Of a DNA stretch of 38,189 nucleotides, positions 14,125-35,255 are shown in pieces (position 1 is the first letter of the stretch; each line of letters opens with the position of its first letter). Made by a program: the position numbers and the translations under genes. The DNA is from a virus, in IMG/VR virus record IMGVR_UViG_3300017991_000222, positions 1 to 38,189 of that record; one strand, given 5' to 3'. Under the pieces are notes generated by a model that was not told the DNA's origin, did no database searches, and saw only the letters and a list, made by a program, of their open reading frames with translations.

Positions 14125-15048
14125 ATGGCACAGAGAATGGGTGAATTCAACGATTTTATGACTCAGTTTATGCAGCTTCTCGTGCAGCAAAAGCTGGAAA
14201 AGGACAGGGCAGACCTCTGGCTTCAGAAGTCCCTAAAAGAATACGGTGCATGGGAAGAGTCACAGAAGAGAGTGATGCTCGAAGGGTTGATAAGAGATGT
14301 CTTTGATAAGCAGTTTGGAGCTGCTAAGGAATGGGCTGGCGACCAGCCGTATTCACCTTATGAGGTAAATCGCTTAATAAGGAATATACTCCCAGAGAAC
14401 ATCAGGGGCAGAATACCAGAGCTACAGGCTCCTGGGTCTCCGACCGCTGCGGCAGGAAGCATGGCTGACCTTATTGGAGCGATGGGCGCTGGAGAGCATC
14501 CATCAGAGGAAACCCTTAAAGGCGTTCTTCCCGCATACGGATTCGAGGAAGCCATGGACGTTGCCAAGAAAGTACAGTCTGGCAAAGAAGAGAGGGCAAG
14601 ACTGGGAATGAGAGAGAAGGAGCTTGAGATTGACAAGAAAAGAATAGAGCAGGAATGGAGTAGGCTTAACCAGCAAATAAAAGAATTCAATAAAGAGAGT
14701 GAAGAAGACAAGAAGGGAGAAAAGAAAGACGAGATTCTCGACTCTTATAAATCGCTGGCTGACCTGTACGATGACCAGATTGAAATGCTTAGAAGCGCTC
14801 TTGATAACCCACAGAACCTTACCGAGGGGGGTGCTTCGGAAATACAAAGGAAGATTGATTCTCTTGTGAATAATAAGGAGCGCCTAATTAAGAAGGTGGA
14901 AAAGCTGGTTGACGTCAATGCGACTGATAGTGGCGAGCTTTCCATCGAGGAAGCCAGGGCTCTGTACATAAAAACCCTTATCGAAAAAGGTGTGCCGAGA
15001 GAGGCTGCGGAGAATCTAGCACGGCAAAGGTTTGGAGGTAATGGATAA
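14125..15048 (+). CDS. Coiled-coil internal virion (ejection-type) protein
   Basis: 307 residues, almost entirely helical: an N-terminal amphipathic region, an Ala/Gly-rich hinge (AAAGSMADLIGAMGAGEHP, about 112-130), then a long coiled coil (about 150-280). The end (REAAENLARQRFG) overlaps the giant protein gene by 8 nt. The location before a giant protein matches the internal-virion block of podoviruses. The function is inferred from position and shape only. An AGGAGA SD precedes the ATG. Confidence 0.6.
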   Translation: MAQRMGEFNDFMTQFMQLLVQQKLEKDRADLWLQKSLKEYGAWEESQKRVMLEGLIRDVFDKQFGAAKEWAGDQPYSPYEVNRLIRNILPENIRGRIPELQAPGSPTAAAGSMADLIGAMGAGEHPSEETLKGVLPAYGFEEAMDVAKKVQSGKEERARLGMREKELEIDKKRIEQEWSRLNQQIKEFNKESEEDKKGEKKDEILDSYKSLADLYDDQIEMLRSALDNPQNLTEGGASEIQRKIDSLVNNKERLIKKVEKLVDVNATDSGELSIEEARALYIKTLIEKGVPREAAENLARQRFGGNG

Positions 15049-18000
15049 ACAAGATGTCATCAGGCTTGCACAACAGGATGCTGCGCTGTGGCAACAGCGT
15101 CAGTCTATATCAGAAGAAGAGGTTGTTTCCCAGGCAATAAAAGATGCTGAGGGGTGGCAAACCCCGCCTGAATTATCAGAAGAAGAGATAGCAGAAAGGG
15201 GTAGAGCCCTAAAATCGCAGGCTGCTTTTATGCCTGGGATGGTACTTCCCGAATATGAGGGAATGGAACCTCCAGAGGAGGGGCTGACCGAGCCGCTTTC
15301 ATGGAAAGAACAGGTAGAGCAAGAGGCGGCTGAGAGAGAGTGGGGCTCTCACATCAAGGACGTGAACCTCAAAAGAAAAGGAAAGGCTGCGGAGTGGTTT
15401 GTCAAGAGGATAGCAGCCCCGATAGTTAAGGGCGGAGCCCAGTCTGGAGCCCAACTTAGCTCGATGTTCGGATGGCTTGCAGATAACCTCTCGACTGGAA
15501 TATCTAAACTTACTGGGATGGACAAAGAAAAGCTCGAAACGGAAATTTTTGACGAATCCAAAAAGCAATGGCAGGAAACAGGCATGACGGCTGAAGACCT
15601 CCTGCATAAGGATAAGGCTTCTGAATTCGTCAATGCCGTCCTTTCTGGTGTGACGTCTGCGGGAACGAGCGTGATTCCCCTGGCTTGGTCTTTAGGAGGC
15701 TCTCTTGGGCTTGCTTACTATGGAGCCTGGAGCGGTGCTGCGGAACCAAGGGAGGGGCTGACAAGGGCAGAGGCGGCTCTTGAGGGAGCCATCTCTGGCG
15801 GTCTAACCCACGGAATACTCGGAGCCATGGGTGTTCTTCCAACTGCCTTAAAATATCCCGCCGCAGTTGGGTTTGGAATGATAACCCAACCTGGGAACCT
15901 TGAAGAAAAAATAAAGTCTGGTGCTGTGTGGGCTGCGCTCATGCCTGGTGGGAAGCGAGTATCTACCAGGGAGTTTCTCGATGCGTACCCCAAAATCAAG
16001 AACAGGTTGATGGAAAGAGACTATATAAGAGCCTTACAGACGGCTATGCCTGGGGTTACGGCAAAGCAGCTAAGGGCTGTCGGTGGAGCAAAGAAGGTAT
16101 TTGACAGCGCTCTCTGGAGGGTTACCGATATTGTCGGCAAGCCTGAGTCATGGGAACGACTTGGCGAGAAGAGACCTCAGCTACCAGAGGCGGATAGAAA
16201 AGCAATGATAGAGCGAGAGCTTTCCAAGCTGGAGCCAGATTTTCTCGCTGGCGAGCTTGGAGCCGTGATGAAGCCTGGCGTGTCAGAGCGTGAGCGTGTC
16301 CAGGCTTTATACGATGAAGCCAAGAGACCAGTTGAGACAACCATAAGAGTGGAGCCCAGGGCTGATGGTACGGTAGATATTCGCATTGTACCGACTGGCG
16401 AGCAGGTAAAAAAAGAAGACGTTGCCATCCTGCAAGACTTGGCAAAAGAGAGGACTCAGCTTCAGGGGTTGTTCGAGCAGGGAAAGATTGGGAAGGATGT
16501 CCTTGAAAGCCATGACCAGCTATCTAAAACCATACGTGATTCCCTGTCTGAGCAGTATGAAGCCCCCGCATATCAAATAACAGAAGCCCTGGAAAAAAAT
16601 TTACCGAGGGGGTTGACGACTGAGCCAACGCCTGAAGTAGTTAAGAGTGGAGTAAGAAGTAAGGACTTCACAATCAAGGCTGACCGAGCCGCCGAGGAGG
16701 TTTCTAAAATCCACAGCGAGCAGGGCGGTTCTACAATCAATCTAAGCAGGGGAAGCCTGGGAAGAAGAGAAGGTTATGCCGTATCGCTGTACCCAGAAAT
16801 TTCCGAGGTAATTCCTGGCAAGGACATATCCCCTGGGCGTGTGAGAAAATTCATCGAGAAAAACTCAGAGCTGCTTAAAGACCCTCGCCTGTCTATCGGT
16901 ACGTGGTACGACAAGGAATCAGGGAAATCCTACCTCGATGTATCTGCTGTAATAAAAGACAGGGACAGGGCTGTAGAGCTTGGCAAAAGATATAACCAAA
17001 AGGCAGTTATGAACCTGAAAAATTTTGAGGAAATACCCACAGGCGGGACTGGAGAATCCCAAGGGTTCGAGACCCCAATGCAGGAAAGGCTGCGGGTTGG
17101 CGGCGGTGAAACCCAGACTCTTTACCACTTCTCTCCCCTGGAGGGCGATACTGCGATTATTGACCCGCATGCCATGGGTAAAGGAAAGATGGGTGCGGAG
17201 GGCAAGCAGCTTAAAGAGACTGGAGAAATAGCTAGCCCCTTCTTACTTAAGTCAAACTGGTATAGCCCAACAGCAAAAACTATCGAGCCCCATAAATGGG
17301 TAGGCAAGAACCTGTATAGGGTAGAGGTTCCAAAAGACGAGTTACTCTATGTTGATAAGCCTGGAATGGATGCGGATATAAAGGCTGCCGAGGCTGGCAA
17401 GATGGGATGGTTTAGCAAGTCCCATGGACAGGGGCGGCTGATTGTCCCCGTTGAGGCTGAGAAGGTGGGGGCTGCCCGATTCAATAAATCAACTAAGGTC
17501 AGCGGCAAGAATGTGATGGAGTTTATCGAGACTGGAAAGCCTGAGGCTGGAGCTGCTGCCGAACACGCTGGAGCTGGAGGCTGGAGCCCTGAAGCCCTGA
17601 GCCGTGGCAAGACGGTAGAGTTTGTCACATACAACGGAAAGAACGGGAAGGTAACCCCCATCCCTGGAGTCGAGGCTGTTGACACCCCTGCTGGAAGCAA
17701 TGAGGTTAAGGCTCAGATAGACAAGACAAATGGAAAAGTCACCATCCTAGATAAAGGTAAAAATGTAAAGCACATTACAAATAACCAGGTATCCAAGGCT
17801 GTCCAGAAAGAATACCAGAAGCTCACGGACAAGATAAATAAAGCCAGAAAGAAGACTGAATTCCCTTACGAGACAGAGGAGTTTCAGCAAATGCTGGAAC
17901 GGCAAGAGGAGCTGAAGCGCCAGGTTGAGCCTGAGAAGGTCAAGGAGAAGCTGCCCCCGCTGTTCGATAAGGGGGAAACCGTAACCAGGGGAGGTGTTGA

Positions 18001-20788
18001 CTACGAGGTTGTTGACGTAAAGGGTGACAAGTATAAATTCAGAAACAAAGAGAGGGGCACCGAGACTGGATATATCGAAAGGGATGAGCTGCAAGGCATG
18101 GGTTTTACCCGTGGCGCCGAGAAGGAGAGAACCGTAAGGACGACAGAGCAGCGCAAGCAGCAAAGGATGGAGAAGGTTGAGGAGCTGGTCGAGGAGGGCA
18201 AGCTAAAGGCTGAGGCTGAGGAACCCGAGTACGATGTCGAAGCTGTCAGAGCCTCGATGGAGCGCATAGAGGCTGCGAGGGCGGCAGAGAAAAGGGTTGA
18301 GGAGCTGGCTGAGACTGAGCCAGAGAAGATAGCGCAAGAGGTTCCAGAGGTGAGCGGGGGAATAATGAAGAAGGGCTTTGCCTACGCCACCATGGAGGCT
18401 CCGAGGGAGGTTATGAGTAGGCTGTCTCAGAAGTCTGGAACCCTCAGTAAAATGATTAGAAATAATTTCGATGGGAGCAGATTGCATAAACCTAGCACCA
18501 TCCGTGGTCAATTCGAGAAGGCTGGTCTTAAGCCTGATGACGATATTATGCGGGCTCTTGAGCAGGACTACGCCTACAAGAAAGCACAGACAGCGCGGGG
18601 TCATGTCGAAAGATTAGTCAAAAATCTACGTGATGCTGGCGTGAGAGAAGAGATTATCAACAGCACAAAGATTATGGACAGACACAGGATTGAAGATGTT
18701 GTCAAGGTTAAGCGTGAAGCTGACGGCACACAGAGCGTAGTCATAAGGCAGGACACCCTGGACTGGATAAAGAAAAACTGTAAAGCAAAAGACAGGCTCC
18801 CGTGGATGCGAAAATTCAGTAAAAGATGGCTCAAGAAGCAGGCTGGCGCCTTTGCAAATCTATTCGAGGTGCCTCAGCTATTCTTCGAGCGAATAGGTCT
18901 GAAGCCAATAATTTATGACCCGATACGAGCTGGAGAAAGAGCCGCTGAAGTCCTTAAGAGAGAGACAAAGAAAGAGGTCGAGGATATTTTCAAGGGTATA
19001 AGCAAGAAGGGTCGCCAGAGAATCTTTGACTTCCTCTCGTCTAAGCAGGGTAAGGCTGAAGATATGAAAAAAGCGGGCATAAGTCCTCCTAAATTGAGCG
19101 ACCTGTCCACACGGGAGCAGCTCGCCATTGTTAAGTGGCGCAGATTCCTTAAGAAGTACAGTCCAAGAGTGCTTGACCTGGCTAAGAAGCACGGAAGAAC
19201 GGTCAGGGAAATCGAAAGCTATTTCCCGATGTACACAAAAGATAACATCGTGTTCGTTGACGGGGCTAATTTTTATGATGTCATAGCCAGAAAAGACCCG
19301 TTCTTTAAATCCCTGCTTGAGAGGGACATGAACGTGCCTTACACCCTGTACGAAAGGGACGCCTTTAAGAACGCAGGTGCTTTTGCGGCTGCCATGTCCA
19401 ACTTCCTTGAGATTGGAAAGCGCAGTATGAGGGTAAAGTACCTGATTGATAGCACGGAATTCAGGGATATGGTTGGCGGAGAGGCTTCAAAGTACATCGC
19501 TGAATGGTACAAGAACATCGTAAATCCAGACATTCCTAAGTTTCCCGCTGTATTCAGAAGGTGGGCTTACAGAGCATACCTGGGTCTTAATCCGATAGTC
19601 ACGGCAAAGCAGGGCATATCTTTTGTTGATGTGATGATGACAGAAAAGACCCCGCTCATGCTATCTAAGGACGTAAAGCAGATTATTAAGCGCCTGGAAA
19701 AGCCGACTGTTACGGAGCGTGTTCCTGAAATAGCCGTGGCTGACATGAAATCCAAGGGCGATAGGGCCCTCCTGGCTGGTATAACCATTGCTGATAAGCT
19801 GTTTGCCAAGGGTGCATACAACAGGGTGCTAGGGGCAGAGCTTATGCAGATGAAGAAAGAGGGAGTCCGCTTCAATAACAAGACCCTGAGAGAGGCTGTA
19901 AGAAGGGTCTCTGACAGGATAGACCTAGCAATGGGAGGCATGACCAGGGCTCAAAGACCTAAGGCATACAGGTCTGAGGTTGGTAAGTTTGCCTTGATGT
20001 TCACATCTACCATCAACTCAAGGTTCCAGTATTACATCAAGAACGCCGTAGAGGGAATCCAAGACAAGGACTCTATTCATGTCGCAAAGACCTTGACCGC
20101 CTTTGCGCTTGGAGCATACCTCGAAGCTGCTATATCAAGAATGTCTCTCGACTGGAGCGATGCCGAGGATATGAAGTCAGACATCATCAAGACCGCCGCA
20201 GGTAATATACCCCCGATGGCGGGCTTAATCTACGCCCTGGATTCTGGGGCATGGATGCCATCTGCGGCACTAAAGAACATATCGGACGTTTTTAAGTATT
20301 CAAAGAGGTGGACTGAGACTGGAAAGCAGGGCGCACCCAAAGCGCTCTTCACAATCGCAGAGGTCTTTGGTCTTCCCAAGCAGGTTGGTAAGGTTTACGA
20401 GGGTCTCGAAGCTATTGATAAGGGCGTGAAGGTTGCTGGCGATAAAAGGATTGAGCTTGACAGCGATGTTGAGAAGGTCAGGGCTCTCATTAAGGGGAAG
20501 TGGGGTTCCCTGGGCGCCCAGAGATATTTTACAGAGGTTGAGGAAAAGCAGGATTGGCACAAGGAAATTGCCAAGAGACTATCGAAGATTGAGGGTAAGT
20601 ATTTTAGGGGCAGAATCAAGAACATAAAGACCTCCTCGTTCAAAAAGAATTTCTGGGGATATGTCGGAGCCCTTCCCGATGAGCAGAAAAAAGAAATAAA
20701 AGAAATCATACGGCTTGCAAGGAAGAGAGAGGAGACCCTCAACTGGACGTCAATCCTGAATTATCTAAAGAGGTATATCGGTGAATAA
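15041..20788 (+). CDS. Giant internal virion protein (1915 residues), multi-domain
   Basis: The largest gene here, at the end of the ejection-protein block. Visible parts: an acidic helical N-terminus; an Ala/Gly-rich hydrophobic region (about 200-290) suited to membrane insertion; an alpha/beta unit (about 555-670: YAVSLYPEISEVIPG ending QKAVMNLKNFEEIPTGG) of a type seen in phage polyvalent proteins; a unit at about 690-830 starting LYHFSPLE with GKGKMGAEGKQL, possibly ADP-ribosyltransferase-like; a charged coiled-coil region with a small beta domain; and a long helical, basic C-terminal half (about 1110-1915). ATG 15041 is chosen with GGAGG close by; an in-frame TTG at 15032 is less likely. 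A role in ejection is inferred. Confidence 0.7.
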   Translation: MDKQDVIRLAQQDAALWQQRQSISEEEVVSQAIKDAEGWQTPPELSEEEIAERGRALKSQAAFMPGMVLPEYEGMEPPEEGLTEPLSWKEQVEQEAAEREWGSHIKDVNLKRKGKAAEWFVKRIAAPIVKGGAQSGAQLSSMFGWLADNLSTGISKLTGMDKEKLETEIFDESKKQWQETGMTAEDLLHKDKASEFVNAVLSGVTSAGTSVIPLAWSLGGSLGLAYYGAWSGAAEPREGLTRAEAALEGAISGGLTHGILGAMGVLPTALKYPAAVGFGMITQPGNLEEKIKSGAVWAALMPGGKRVSTREFLDAYPKIKNRLMERDYIRALQTAMPGVTAKQLRAVGGAKKVFDSALWRVTDIVGKPESWERLGEKRPQLPEADRKAMIERELSKLEPDFLAGELGAVMKPGVSERERVQALYDEAKRPVETTIRVEPRADGTVDIRIVPTGEQVKKEDVAILQDLAKERTQLQGLFEQGKIGKDVLESHDQLSKTIRDSLSEQYEAPAYQITEALEKNLPRGLTTEPTPEVVKSGVRSKDFTIKADRAAEEVSKIHSEQGGSTINLSRGSLGRREGYAVSLYPEISEVIPGKDISPGRVRKFIEKNSELLKDPRLSIGTWYDKESGKSYLDVSAVIKDRDRAVELGKRYNQKAVMNLKNFEEIPTGGTGESQGFETPMQERLRVGGGETQTLYHFSPLEGDTAIIDPHAMGKGKMGAEGKQLKETGEIASPFLLKSNWYSPTAKTIEPHKWVGKNLYRVEVPKDELLYVDKPGMDADIKAAEAGKMGWFSKSHGQGRLIVPVEAEKVGAARFNKSTKVSGKNVMEFIETGKPEAGAAAEHAGAGGWSPEALSRGKTVEFVTYNGKNGKVTPIPGVEAVDTPAGSNEVKAQIDKTNGKVTILDKGKNVKHITNNQVSKAVQKEYQKLTDKINKARKKTEFPYETEEFQQMLERQEELKRQVEPEKVKEKLPPLFDKGETVTRGGVDYEVVDVKGDKYKFRNKERGTETGYIERDELQGMGFTRGAEKERTVRTTEQRKQQRMEKVEELVEEGKLKAEAEEPEYDVEAVRASMERIEAARAAEKRVEELAETEPEKIAQEVPEVSGGIMKKGFAYATMEAPREVMSRLSQKSGTLSKMIRNNFDGSRLHKPSTIRGQFEKAGLKPDDDIMRALEQDYAYKKAQTARGHVERLVKNLRDAGVREEIINSTKIMDRHRIEDVVKVKREADGTQSVVIRQDTLDWIKKNCKAKDRLPWMRKFSKRWLKKQAGAFANLFEVPQLFFERIGLKPIIYDPIRAGERAAEVLKRETKKEVEDIFKGISKKGRQRIFDFLSSKQGKAEDMKKAGISPPKLSDLSTREQLAIVKWRRFLKKYSPRVLDLAKKHGRTVREIESYFPMYTKDNIVFVDGANFYDVIARKDPFFKSLLERDMNVPYTLYERDAFKNAGAFAAAMSNFLEIGKRSMRVKYLIDSTEFRDMVGGEASKYIAEWYKNIVNPDIPKFPAVFRRWAYRAYLGLNPIVTAKQGISFVDVMMTEKTPLMLSKDVKQIIKRLEKPTVTERVPEIAVADMKSKGDRALLAGITIADKLFAKGAYNRVLGAELMQMKKEGVRFNNKTLREAVRRVSDRIDLAMGGMTRAQRPKAYRSEVGKFALMFTSTINSRFQYYIKNAVEGIQDKDSIHVAKTLTAFALGAYLEAAISRMSLDWSDAEDMKSDIIKTAAGNIPPMAGLIYALDSGAWMPSAALKNISDVFKYSKRWTETGKQGAPKALFTIAEVFGLPKQVGKVYEGLEAIDKGVKVAGDKRIELDSDVEKVRALIKGKWGSLGAQRYFTEVEEKQDWHKEIAKRLSKIEGKYFRGRIKNIKTSSFKKNFWGYVGALPDEQKKEIKEIIRLARKREETLNWTSILNYLKRYIGE

Positions 20789-29391: not shown

Positions 29392-30168
29392 TTAGTCTCC
29401 TTTCCTAGCCCATCTCTCGGCTATTTCCATGTTAGACAGGCGCTTCTTTTTATACTGACCCTCCAGTACCTTGATGTAGTTAGAGGGCTTGAGAATCCAA
29501 TCGAAGGTTATGACCCACCCCTCTTTGTTGTCGCCGAGGAGAAACGCCTGCTCTGCCGCAGCACTCAAGACCTCATCGAGGTTGAAGCCATTGTCCTTCA
29601 TTCGTGCCCTCAACTGTCTCTCCCTCGTGGAGCCTGAGACAATACCCCTCACCTTTGGAAGGCTGTGTTCCTCAGCAAAGGCGTTCCATTTTTCGAGAGT
29701 CAACATAATTATTTCTTTATTCTTTTCCTTCTTTTCTTTCTTTTCTTCTTCTTTCTTCTCTTCTTTTTTAAGAGTAAGAGAAGTATTTACATAGGTACCG
29801 CTTGTTGTCCGTTTGTTGTCCATTTGCTGTCCATTTTGTTGTCCACCCTCCTGATATTTTTCCCAGTAAGTTATTGATACTATTGAGTATTTATTGGTAG
29901 ATTTGATGTCCACTTTGTTGTCCATTTTTAGAATGCTAAGGTATCTTATTAGTGTCGTGGGTCTGATATTTAAGAACCCGCTAGCGTCTGGTCTCTTGAA
30001 AACAAACTGACCTGGCTTTAGGCGAACCACTTGATTCCCTATCATTTCCTCTCTCTCCTTGTAGGCTGCGCTGCATAGGCACCATATCCACACCTTGAGC
30101 AGTCCCTCGTTTCTAAACATCGGGTTATCAATTATCTTTCTCCACAGCTTTATGTATCCTGGTCTCAT
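29392..30168 (-). CDS. Replication initiator (phage O-like/replisome organizer)
   Basis: 258 residues. An N-terminal winged-helix domain (1-100: YIKLWRKIIDNPMF, GQFVFKRPDASGFLNIRPTTLIRYLSIL, STNKYSIVSITYWEKYQ) typical of phage replisome-organizer proteins is joined by a Gln/Asn linker and a Lys/Glu run to a C-terminal domain (about 155-258) with WNAFAEEHSLPKVRG and FDWILKPSNYIKVLEG, a DnaT/loader-interacting type. It would bind iterons in its own gene and recruit the helicase through the loader. The GGAGAGGAAATGA leader supports this ATG. Confidence 0.85.
   Translation of the reverse strand: MRPGYIKLWRKIIDNPMFRNEGLLKVWIWCLCSAAYKEREEMIGNQVVRLKPGQFVFKRPDASGFLNIRPTTLIRYLSILKMDNKVDIKSTNKYSIVSITYWEKYQEGGQQNGQQMDNKRTTSGTYVNTSLTLKKEEKKEEEKKEKKEKNKEIIMLTLEKWNAFAEEHSLPKVRGIVSGSTRERQLRARMKDNGFNLDEVLSAAAEQAFLLGDNKEGWVITFDWILKPSNYIKVLEGQYKKKRLSNMEIAERWARKGD
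29700..29930. other. Candidate replication origin within the initiator gene
   Basis: Six copies of an 11-12-bp iteron TTTGTTGTCCA (plus strand) lie at 29802, 29811, 29823, 29834 (tandem) and 29902, 29913. An AT-rich gap between the two clusters has the inverted repeat ATACT-ATTG-AGTAT (29877-29890). A 60-bp tract at about 29708-29770 is almost pure pyrimidine on the plus strand. Iterons next to an A-rich, strand-asymmetric tract inside the initiator gene is the lambda ori layout. Confidence 0.65.
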
Positions 30169-30269
30169 TCATTTCCTCTCCGAGTTGAGATGGGGCAGCG
30201 GCAGCCACAATGAAAGCAAAGCATGGAGGGGTTGGAGGATGAACCGCCGCCGCCCCTTATTGTCGTCAT
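30165..30269 (-). CDS. 34-residue Cys-rich micro-protein
   Basis: Begins MTTIRGGGGSSSNP and has CFHCGCRCP, a tight cysteine cluster that could bind a metal. It overlaps the SSB stop (ATGA) at its start and the initiator ATG (ATGA) at its end, filling the gap exactly. A GAGG is about 10 nt upstream. This double coupling is the main evidence; the sequence is too short for a family call. Confidence 0.5.
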   Translation of the reverse strand: MTTIRGGGGSSSNPSMLCFHCGCRCPISTRRGNE

Positions 30270-30679
30270 TTAAATGATACCTCTTCGTCATCAGATTCTT
30301 CTGGGGCTTCCCATAGTTCTTCGTGCTCTTTTCTTTCTTGTGCATCTTTTTTTGAGTCTAGGAATATCAACTCCGTTGCGTTTATGTATGTGTTCTTTCG
30401 CTTATTACCCTCGTTGTCTTCCCATATACGAGTCTTCAGGGCTCCGCTGACCAAGACTCTTGAGCCCTTCTTGAGATACTTTTCTGCCAGCTCTGCGAGC
30501 TTGCCCCATACGGTAACCTCTATCCAGCTTGCATACTTAGCCCCGCCTCGGAAAATCTCGTTGACGCCTATCGTAAATGACGCCAACTTTCTGCCCGACT
30601 CCTTTACCGTGTGAACCCTGGGGTCTTGAGCGACATATCCCGCCACGTCTGCTTTTGAAAACGACCTTACAAACGCCAT
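30266..30679 (-). CDS. ssb: Single-stranded DNA-binding protein
   Basis: 137 residues with the OB-fold phrases of SSB (GYVAQDPRVHTVKESGRKLASFTIGV; SWIEVTVWGKLAELAEKYLKKGSRVLVSGALKTRIWED). It coats ssDNA and binds replication and recombination partners. The C-terminal tail is acidic but ends EEVSFK rather than the usual DDDIPF, so partner binding may differ. The start overlaps the preceding stop (TAATG). Confidence 0.93.
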   Translation of the reverse strand: MAFVRSFSKADVAGYVAQDPRVHTVKESGRKLASFTIGVNEIFRGGAKYASWIEVTVWGKLAELAEKYLKKGSRVLVSGALKTRIWEDNEGNKRKNTYINATELIFLDSKKDAQERKEHEELWEAPEESDDEEVSFK

Positions 30680-30870: not shown

Positions 30871-31673
30871 TTCTTTTTCCTCCTTGCCAGGCTCCTCTCT
30901 TTGCGGAGCCACCATATATCCACGAAGCGGCAGAATTCCTCAAAGAAACTATCAAGGACTTGACGCTCTATGATGTGCCACTCCATGTCGCCAGTATATT
31001 TATCTAGCCTCAGCATCGCTCCGCAATCTACGGTCTGACCGCTTCTTTCTTCCCACGCATGAACGTAGCTTGCCAGTTGCAGCTTGTGGTCGTGGTACAA
31101 TCCGTTGGCAGTCTTGAAGTCTATGACGAACAGGTACCTGCTTTTTTTTGGCAGCGCTTTAACGCCAAGGTGTTCGGGAATACTCAGGTTCGCAACCAAA
31201 TCAAGAGTGCCTGCGTAACGATGCTTTTCTGAGTAAACCCTTTCCTCTATCCCGACTGGCTCGACACAATACTCCCGAAGCCATTGATAGAATTTCTCGA
31301 CTTGCTCTTTAAACTCAGGGGGCACAGACTCCATCCTCCCTGTCCTGAAGTATTCCTCGATGAGCCCATGCACTATAGTCCCCTTCTCGGCACCCTCTTT
31401 CGCAGCCTCTTCGGGTCTTTCCTTTGCCTTCTTCATCATCAGGGGGACGTCCAGACATTCGAGGAAATCCTTAGTCATCATGCCCTTTCCTGTAATGTGC
31501 ATTTCATAGATGAGCTGGCTAACAAAGCTCTCCACCGCCGTCCGTGCATACCAGGAGTGAAGCCCTATCTTCTCGTTGATATTCAAGACAGTCGTTGACG
31601 AGGGCAGCTTAACGCCGAGGTCATCAACGAAATACTCCCTACCTTCTTTACTTTCAACTCTTCTTATTCCCAC
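30867..31673 (-). CDS. RecB/Cas4-like exonuclease (PD-(D/E)XK)
   Basis: 268 residues from GTG 31673 with GGAG at 7 nt. KGTIVHGLIEEYF (H102), YAGTLDLVA (D158), FVIDFKTAN (D185, K187) and LQLASY (Q199) reproduce the RecB-family nuclease signature. Together with the adjacent annealing protein it would form a two-component recombination pair: the exonuclease makes 3' ssDNA and the annealer pairs it, as with lambda exo and beta. It overlaps the annealing gene's end by 20 nt. There is no Cas4 Cys cluster in this sequence. Confidence 0.8.
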   Translation of the reverse strand: MGIRRVESKEGREYFVDDLGVKLPSSTTVLNINEKIGLHSWYARTAVESFVSQLIYEMHITGKGMMTKDFLECLDVPLMMKKAKERPEEAAKEGAEKGTIVHGLIEEYFRTGRMESVPPEFKEQVEKFYQWLREYCVEPVGIEERVYSEKHRYAGTLDLVANLSIPEHLGVKALPKKSRYLFVIDFKTANGLYHDHKLQLASYVHAWEERSGQTVDCGAMLRLDKYTGDMEWHIIERQVLDSFFEEFCRFVDIWWLRKERSLARRKKK

Positions 31674-32733
31674 TTTTTTTCTCCTTTCCTTTCTTTGATT
31701 TAACGAAAGCATCCAGGGCTGTCTGCATGTTCTGAGCCAGGTACCACAAGTCTTCCTCGTTTCCCTCTGTCAGGGACAGGTTTCCGTATTGCTTGCCGAT
31801 AAACCTTTTCCCCATCTTGCCTTGAACACCGTACAGATATTTTTTGAATTCCGTGTAGTCCAGATTGTTCATCTTCTCGACCGTTACCTTTACCATCTGG
31901 ACAATATCTTTCACGGCATCAGACACCTCTGGTTTTTTCTTATCGCCAGACGCAATCTTGCTCTGGTCTATGCCAGGGAGGGGCGAGTCGTCCTCCCCTT
32001 CTTCTGGAATATAAGGAGCGAAGGGAGCGTCCCCCTCGGTATTATCCTCATCAGCTTTTTCCCCGTCCTCCTTTCGTTTGGATTTGCTAGTATGCCCCTT
32101 GGGTTCATCTCCCTTCTTTCTCCATAGATACTTACCTTTCTTGCCTCTTCGAGCGTCCCAGGCATTGTTGTCCCAGCATTTCTCGGCATACTTTTCTTTC
32201 CATGCCTTGATAAAACTGGGCTTCCACAGCTCTAAGCCTATGCCTATCCCCTTGCAAAGGCGCATGAGTGCGTTACTCTTTGCCCCCTCGCAGGCGTCAC
32301 TCCACGACATGGCAGGATTATTCTCGTGATACTCCTGCTCGCCGATGGCATAGCCGTATGGCTTTCCATCCACGAATAAATAGAATCCCCACATGAGAGA
32401 GTTACCACTTGGGCTCATCTCAGGCTTGGGTGTGGCGGGAATGATTGCCCACTTACCACCGAAGGCATCCCTAAGCCTCGTAACATACTCCATCCATGGT
32501 AGGTATATGAGCCCATCAGGTCTTATCTCGACAATCTCGTCCTCGATGGGGGCGAACAGGATTTCCTTCTGCTCGCCTGTAAACTCCACGGTTGCAGCCA
32601 CGCCAAGCATGTCAATGACCTTATCGGATACAGTCTCAGACCTGGACACAGCCATTGGAGCCGCTGAGGGCTGCTCCGACTGGAGCCCTCCGCCCTCGTG
32701 CTTTACGATTGATGCTTCCTTACCTTCTGACAT
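31654..32733 (-). CDS. Mgm101/Rad52-like ssDNA annealing protein
   Basis: 359 residues. IYLPWMEYVTRLRDAFGGKW, YLFVDGKPYGYAIGEQEYH and WSDACEGAKSNALMRLCKG form the core of the Mgm101/Rad52-fold phage recombinases. After about residue 200 there is a long, charged, low-complexity stretch, then a smaller helical C-terminal domain (about 270-345) and a Lys-rich tail. It anneals complementary ssDNA and pairs with the neighbouring exonuclease. The SD AGGAGG is close to the ATG. Length is longer than typical because of the linker. Confidence 0.8.
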   Translation of the reverse strand: MSEGKEASIVKHEGGGLQSEQPSAAPMAVSRSETVSDKVIDMLGVAATVEFTGEQKEILFAPIEDEIVEIRPDGLIYLPWMEYVTRLRDAFGGKWAIIPATPKPEMSPSGNSLMWGFYLFVDGKPYGYAIGEQEYHENNPAMSWSDACEGAKSNALMRLCKGIGIGLELWKPSFIKAWKEKYAEKCWDNNAWDARRGKKGKYLWRKKGDEPKGHTSKSKRKEDGEKADEDNTEGDAPFAPYIPEEGEDDSPLPGIDQSKIASGDKKKPEVSDAVKDIVQMVKVTVEKMNNLDYTEFKKYLYGVQGKMGKRFIGKQYGNLSLTEGNEEDLWYLAQNMQTALDAFVKSKKGKEKKSGNKKS

Positions 32734-34089: not shown

Positions 34090-35151
34090 ATGGGGGTTTA
34101 CCTTCGAGGTAACCGATACCATTTCAAAAAGATGGTAGAGGGCAAGGTTTATTACAAGCCGCTGCGCATACGCAAAGGACAGGAATCCCTTCTGTCTGCC
34201 AGGGTGAAGCAAGTCGAGGAGGAAATAATAGCACAGCACTACGGCATACCATACAAGGGGAGTGACAGCACCACCTTTCAGGACTATTCCCTCACGTACC
34301 TCAGCCAGAAAAAGTATAAGAAAACATGGGAGCGTGACAAGCAGAGACTTGCCATAATGGCAGAGATAGTGGGCGACCCACCGCTGCGCTCGATGGGCAA
34401 GCCAGATATTCAGCGGCTTGAGAAAGCGTTATTCGCCAGGGGGCTGAAGCCCTCGACAGTCAATAGGTACTTCGAGATACTAAACAATATGTTCAACACA
34501 GCCATCGAGGACGAGGTACTGGATAAGAATCCATGCAGGTTTTACAAGAGGTACACCGAGGACGGCAGCCGCAGAGCCTTGAGCCAGGATGAGTTGAGAA
34601 AAATACTGAGCGCAGCCAAGGAAATTCAAGAGAGTCCAAGGTCAAACATTCAGTCCCTCATATATGACATTATTATTCTCGCCCTATCCACGGGCATGAG
34701 GCTATCCGAGATGCTCAATCTAAAAAGAATCCACGTTGACCTGGAAAGAAACCGCATCACTCTACCGATTTCTCATACAAAGTACAAGAGAAGAGGTGGC
34801 GGAAGGCAACGGGTGAAGGTTATTGTAATGAACACTACAGCTATGCGCATCTTGAGTAAGCACTTAGCCAGGTCTGAGTATGTGCTTCCCGTTGGGTGGC
34901 GGGACGCAAGCACGGTGTTCCATGTGGTCAGGAAGATTCGCAAGATGACGGGCATCGAGGACTTCACGTTCCACCAGTTGAGACATACAGTTGCTACCTT
35001 TCTCACATCAAAGGTTGACATTGCCACGAGCCGCATAATCCTGGGGCACTCTGACATACAAACCACGCTTAAATACTCCCATCCCTCCAGTCTGGAAGAG
35101 GGTGTTGCAAAATTAGATACACTTGTGGCAGACCTCCAGGGTAATGCGTAG
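34090..35151 (+). CDS. int: Tyrosine integrase
   Basis: 353 residues with an N-terminal arm-binding unit, a core-binding SAM-like domain (about 60-155) and a catalytic domain. Catalytic residues are visible: R204 (STGMRLSEML), H296 and R299 (FHQLRHTVAT), H320 (LGHSD) and nucleophile Y329 (TLKYSH). It recombines attP with a host att site that here looks like a tRNA-Leu 3' end. The stop is 2 nt before the attP core. The start lies 2 nt after the repressor stop, suggesting coupled translation. Confidence 0.95.
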   Translation: MGVYLRGNRYHFKKMVEGKVYYKPLRIRKGQESLLSARVKQVEEEIIAQHYGIPYKGSDSTTFQDYSLTYLSQKKYKKTWERDKQRLAIMAEIVGDPPLRSMGKPDIQRLEKALFARGLKPSTVNRYFEILNNMFNTAIEDEVLDKNPCRFYKRYTEDGSRRALSQDELRKILSAAKEIQESPRSNIQSLIYDIIILALSTGMRLSEMLNLKRIHVDLERNRITLPISHTKYKRRGGGRQRVKVIVMNTTAMRILSKHLARSEYVLPVGWRDASTVFHVVRKIRKMTGIEDFTFHQLRHTVATFLTSKVDIATSRIILGHSDIQTTLKYSHPSSLEEGVAKLDTLVADLQGNA

Positions 35152-35153
35152 TT

Positions 35154-35177
35154 GTTCGAGTCCCCCCTTCGGCACCA
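35154..35177 (+). other. attP core, matching a tRNA 3' end
   Basis: Positions 35155-35177 read as T-loop TTCGAGT, T-stem half CCCCC, acceptor half CTTCGGC, discriminator A and CCA. The acceptor partner would be GCCGAAG, as in bacterial tRNA-Leu (E. coli leuX ends with the same CTTCGGCACCA). No 5' tRNA half exists upstream, so this is an attP identity segment rather than a tRNA gene. Confidence 0.8.
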
Positions 35178-35255
35178 ACTATCCCACCAGTTACCCCATA
35201 TAATTCAATAGTTTAAGTCGGCATATATGGACATCTGCGGCATGGATTGACATTC

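Follow-up and report, generated by a model that had tools for sequence, protein, structure and literature searches.

Iterons inside a phage initiator gene: a probable replication origin that encodes part of the protein expected to bind it

Can the DNA that encodes a replication initiator also be the origin on which that initiator acts? The question is raised by a gene in virus record IMGVR_UViG_3300017991_000222, whose whole length of 38,189 bases was analysed here and is referred to as the window. The window codes for a terminase, a portal protein and an integrase and contains an internal virion protein match. Neighbouring the initiator gene are genes for a single-strand binding protein (SSB), a PD-(D/E)XK exonuclease and an Mgm101-like single-strand annealing protein (window 31654-32733, Pfam PF06420, 7e-37), the last being part of the phage recombination module. 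The ORFs scanned included no recognisable phage helicase or loader gene. Elsewhere in the window, a 1918-residue reading frame (15032-20788) had no PHROG match at E 0.001. Just past the integrase gene (34090-35151), GTTCGAGTCCCCCCTTCGGCACCA at 35150-35180 resembles a tRNA gene 3' end and is a possible phage attachment site; ARAGORN found no whole tRNA in the window. The initiator gene and the parts discussed below are as follows.

29392..30168, minus strand: initiator gene (P0001, 258 aa), with N-terminal winged helix, linker, Lys/Glu helix and O-like C-terminal part
29842..30141, minus strand: code of the DNA-binding domain, a predicted winged helix (aa 10-109) supported by AlphaFold2 pLDDT and structure matches
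29431..29694, minus strand: code of the C-terminal part (aa 159-246; PHROG 19658, 6e-17), akin to phage initiators, O-like ones among them
30266..30679, minus strand: SSB gene, just upstream of the initiator gene on the same strand (Pfam SSB, 1e-25)

Profile searches place the protein among phage initiators: residues 3-150 match the DnaD-like helicase loader family PHROG 2514 (2e-28), and residues 110-244 match PHROG 10469 (5e-20) and the O-like PHROG 345 (1e-16). An AlphaFold2 model built with 78 relatives gave a confident winged helix at residues 10-109 (pLDDT mostly 94-98 per 10-residue block over residues 11-100), followed by a disordered stretch at residues 110-132 and a long helix at residues 136-167. 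In structure comparison, the predicted domain best matched proteins that bind DNA through a winged helix (Z of about 9-11 across some 65 residues), and these matches speak to its fold, that of winged-helix DNA-binding proteins in general, rather than to its function. The C-terminal part presumably contacts the replicative helicase or its loader.

Six 11-bp repeats lie inside this gene, arranged as a pair (29924-29902) and a tetrad (29845-29801), all in the same orientation on the coding strand and separated by steps of 12, 67, 12, 11 and 11 bp.

29914..29924, minus strand: iteron 1, TGGACAACAAA, exact; reads M-D-N-K; codes the last part of the recognition helix plus the turn leading to the wing
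29902..29912, minus strand: iteron 2, TGGACATCAAA, 1 mismatch; reads V-D-I-K; codes the first wing strand, aa 86-90
29835..29845, minus strand: iteron 3, TGGACAACAAA, exact; reads G-Q-Q
29823..29833, minus strand: iteron 4, TGGACAGCAAA, 1 mismatch; reads G-Q-Q
29812..29822, minus strand: iteron 5, TGGACAACAAA, exact; reads M-D-N-K
29801..29811, minus strand: iteron 6, CGGACAACAAG, 2 mismatches; reads R-T-T

Thus, two of the six iterons fall within the code of the DNA-binding domain, and the array otherwise occupies the stretch between the DNA-binding and C-terminal domains. Six iterons in two clusters had been proposed from the sequence alone, and the copies themselves, simulations and codon shuffles bear this out: the window holds 6 copies within 130 bp on one strand, as compared with a maximum of 2 in any 130-bp stretch across 60 Markov-1 simulations, and the 11-bp periodicity score of the gene is 26/33, as compared with a mean of 20 in synonymous-codon shuffles (p = 0.005).

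Could the repetition belong to the protein, with the DNA merely looking repetitive? The tetrad does code for a disordered linker, and a low-complexity linker rich in Q, N, T and K would be a natural source of repeats. However, along the array one DNA word is read in all three codon frames (MDNK or VDIK, GQQ, RTT). Since 11 bp cannot be divided into whole codons, the word codes for different peptides in successive copies (MDNK, GQQ and RTT), and a repetitive protein therefore cannot account for the iterons. The period is moreover lost in synonymous shuffles and absent from neighbouring ORFs, and the copies in the wing code, described below, match the iteron of their own gene. We accordingly give the linker-only explanation next to no credence. 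The 11-bp period, the use of three codon frames, the synonymous shuffles and the neighbour-ORF control all point to repeats selected as DNA and not as protein.

Two further elements accompany the iterons.

29846..29901, minus strand: AT-rich gap between the iteron clusters (68% AT, as compared with 56% for the gene)
29712..29769, minus strand: A-rich purine tract coding KKEEKKEEEKKEKKEKNKE (57/58 purines on the coding strand), a candidate unwinding element

The AT-rich gap was correctly anticipated by the original prediction, and its composition stands out from that of the gene. The inverted repeat that the same prediction placed in the gap (ATACT-CAAT-AGTAT, with 5-bp arms) occurs at chance level (P = 0.24 in shuffles), and we attach no meaning to it. 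A strand-asymmetric tract of about 60 bp had also been described as coding for a Lys/Glu linker. The tract is real, with 57/58 pyrimidines on the plus strand and a score of 53 as compared with a simulation maximum of 26, but the linker part of the description did not hold: the tract codes mainly for the start of the predicted long helix (residues 136-167), and the disordered linker (residues 110-132) corresponds to the iteron tetrad plus the spacer behind it. By composition, then, a putative AT-rich unwinding region adjoins the iterons.

To place the window gene within its family, we collected 160 loci by two protein-based scans of viral contigs; adding annotated records of phages and plasmids, and three loci that a pattern had turned up first, gave 180 genes. 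Of these, 92 remained when identity was limited to less than 70% of amino acids. The strongest period that was not a multiple of three was 11 or 22 bp in 85/92 relatives, mostly positioned 320-370 nt into the gene, the same place as in the window gene. A strict score cut-off was passed by 72/91 initiators and by none of the 257 neighbouring ORFs in the same loci, and in 62/92 genes the period went beyond what synonymous shuffles gave (p<=0.01). Iterons used all three codon frames in 65/92 genes, a count made with an automatic consensus that failed in a few genes, among them that of the window: there it took the purine tract in place of the iterons, and TGGACAACAAA was set by hand for later steps. 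Every gene had an iteron of its own, built on a common core CANCAA and differing among genes at positions 1-4, 7 and 11. Within the genes of the relatives, AT content (73%) and purine content (74%) were highest in the 30 nt past the last iteron. One candidate relative, TP901-1 rep, was dropped from the same-type set when the 11-bp period was not found in it. In Listeria phage vB_LmoS_P9 (MZ361825.1; L037, 640-2412), an annotated tail tape-measure frame runs into an iteron-bearing initiator of the family, which is either a fusion or an assembly error.

The pair of iterons in the window lies where the gene codes for the wing, and we asked whether relatives also carry their own iteron there, using for each gene a consensus built only from its downstream array. 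A match of at least 9/11 was present in the 40 nt coding for the wing in 81% of 67 genes, as compared with 0-9% in other 40-nt stretches. The wing code fitted the consensus of its own gene better than consensus sequences from elsewhere in the family (p = 3e-12), and its match exceeded synonymous shuffles (p = 1e-12; individually significant in 26/67 genes), p-values that are optimistic because the tests treat related sequences as independent genes. In 36/57 genes with both sites found, the last wing site and the first array site were 66-68 bp apart; this constancy may partly be due to fixed protein length. Positions of sites relative to the reading-frame anchor are approximate, since in some relatives the anchor is misplaced by one or two repeats. 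The wing sites occupied the three codon phases in 41, 13 and 3 genes, and since more than one phase is used, the encoded amino acids differ while the DNA site is kept. The binding site may thus double as code for the wing of the very domain that binds it, the wing copy changing together with the array in a self-referential specificity lock, an interpretation that we offer tentatively and rate slightly below an even chance. If such a lock exists, the specificity of the origin could not change without a change in the element through which the protein itself contacts DNA, and vice versa.

Across the family, the iteron goes with the DNA-binding domain and not with the rest of the protein. Over 711 pairs, the correlation of iteron similarity was 0.25 with identity of the N-termini and -0.01 with that of the C-termini, and the partial r of iteron identity was 0.26 for the N-terminal domain and -0.06 for the C-terminal domain. 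For example, the S. aureus phages HSA84 and phiSa2-NARSA676 have C-termini that are 96% identical, N-termini that are 32% identical, and different iterons. These results agree with the expectation that relatives would keep iterons matched to their own initiators. In two loci (L214, L215) a C-terminal domain of the window type is joined to unrelated N-termini and 11-bp iterons are lacking, which indicates that this domain is reused by other initiator types. Within the recognition helix, residues 71 and 74-76 were associated with iteron position 4, R74 occurring with C at this position (18/20 vs 5/38). On the tree the label changes about six times, and well-supported branches require three of these changes; with the tree taken into account, the test of the association had only three independent contrasts, such that ancestry could explain the link; we therefore do not regard a code relating the recognition helix to position 4 as established.

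Exchange of C-termini raises another explanation, in which the repeats are a recombination joint for swapping C-terminal domains between phages and are kept for that purpose. The array does sit at the domain boundary, and C-termini have been exchanged; yet the iteron sequence varies among phages, which would hinder such recombination, and the wing-encoded copies lie upstream of the joint. We consider this explanation highly improbable, though slightly less so than a repetition of the protein linker alone.

A more substantial alternative is that the repeats are operator sites through which the protein represses its own gene or operon, the origin lying elsewhere. Tandem sites within the gene of a winged-helix protein would fit autoregulation too, and many fold-level winged-helix relatives are transcription regulators. 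Against this, the sites lie 240-370 nt into the gene and not at a promoter, a promoter scan having returned chance-level matches only; an A-rich asymmetric tract follows the array throughout the family; and characterised lambdoid relatives use in-gene iterons as their origin (PMC3349717, PMC7466680). An operator function in place of an origin thus appears unlikely, and autoregulation and origin roles could coexist at the same sites.

What is observed is a set of repeats conserved at the DNA level in all codon frames, present in gene-specific form across the family and linked to the DNA-binding domain. Considering these together, we think it very probable, judging from sequence, that the gene contains a theta-type origin that is bound, opened and loaded by its own initiator. 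In the mechanism that we propose, the N-terminal winged-helix domain would bind all six iterons, which point the same way and come one per helical turn of 11 bp; two of these sites are code for the protein's own wing and four are linker code. Once assembled, the nucleoprotein complex would open the neighbouring purine tract, which is A-rich, and recruitment of the replicative helicase or its loader would fall to the C-terminal part, by analogy with lambda.

Two other sources of information were set aside. The sign of the GC skew follows gene direction, positive to about 22.5 kb and negative to about 33.5 kb, and was dropped as origin evidence, supporting neither side. The bare doublet pattern was likewise dropped as a specific marker or proof of an origin: in all 15 viral contigs found with the pattern the doublet sits in an initiator-like gene, but bacterial genomes contain 14 further occurrences of the doublet TGGACANCAAATGGACANCAAA (loci among L022-L035), none of them in an initiator gene. 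In four of these loci (L024, L026, L027, L035) the doublet lies within about 250 bp of tRNA genes, and in one (L025) it overlaps the 3' end of an integrase gene. As a guess from sequence, the bacterial doublets may be integrase arm sites; a crude regular expression, itself a weak probe, gave no match to integrases near them.

If the origin reading is true, then origin, initiator and specificity move as one cassette, which helps to explain how replication modules are exchanged and how phages remain self-compatible without being mutually compatible. With the 11-bp signature, likely origins could be located by a simple sequence test in many phages and prophages that are still uncharacterised, and a specificity code becomes testable because both iterons and recognition helices are diverse. 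The wing copy would be a natural case of one DNA stretch evolving under two demands.

In-gene iteron origins are already known as a kind, and it is the family-wide rule and the wing-encoded copy that are apparently unreported; we found no account of them in the open-access full-text literature searched, and an earlier description of the wing copy may exist. Gene 18 of the P22-like Salmonella phage L carries six imprecise 11-bp repeats, TGTCCAACGGA, proposed as its origin, and distant relatives of that initiator have different iterons, according to the authors (PMC8022706). Compared with this description, the window gene likewise has six imprecise 11-bp repeats, but their sequence differs, and a wing-encoded copy is not described for phage L. 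The O protein of HK022 gave a weak homology match, and its gene has 11-bp copies, TTACCAGCAAA, with no wing-encoded copy seen. The RepA_N initiators of plasmids and satellites (pSK41, pTZ2162, PLE RepA) resemble the window initiator, whose winged helix is predicted, in combining a winged-helix N-terminal domain, iterons and a variable C-terminus, their iterons being described as semi-palindromic direct repeats (PMC7145576). The initiator structure 4pt7 was among the Foldseek matches of the window domain, with weak E-values (0.08) and a generic fold, and at the sequence level no relation to RepA_N initiators was found.

Lambda is similar in layout. Lambda ori proper has four 18-bp iterons with hyphenated dyad symmetry at steps of 20-24 bp (PMC3349717), whereas the window has 11-bp direct repeats at steps of 11-12 bp, two of them inside the domain code, and we do not class it as lambda ori in the strict sense; no lambda-like palindrome was noted past the window tract. 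In both, the initiator gene itself contains the origin, putative in the window, beyond the DNA-binding domain (PMC3349717, PMC7466680). The lambda-like order that had been predicted, iterons followed by a strand-asymmetric A-rich tract, was read in lambda O as well, where a purine tract on the coding strand follows the iterons as it does in the window. The composition of this tract is also alike, with 76% AT and 82% purine over 78 nt in the window and 79% and 71% over 42 nt in lambda. That one sequence serves as both coding region and lambda-style origin, as originally suggested, is thus the best-supported reading through the order of its elements and the relatives' own iterons, in a form that differs from lambda in detail.
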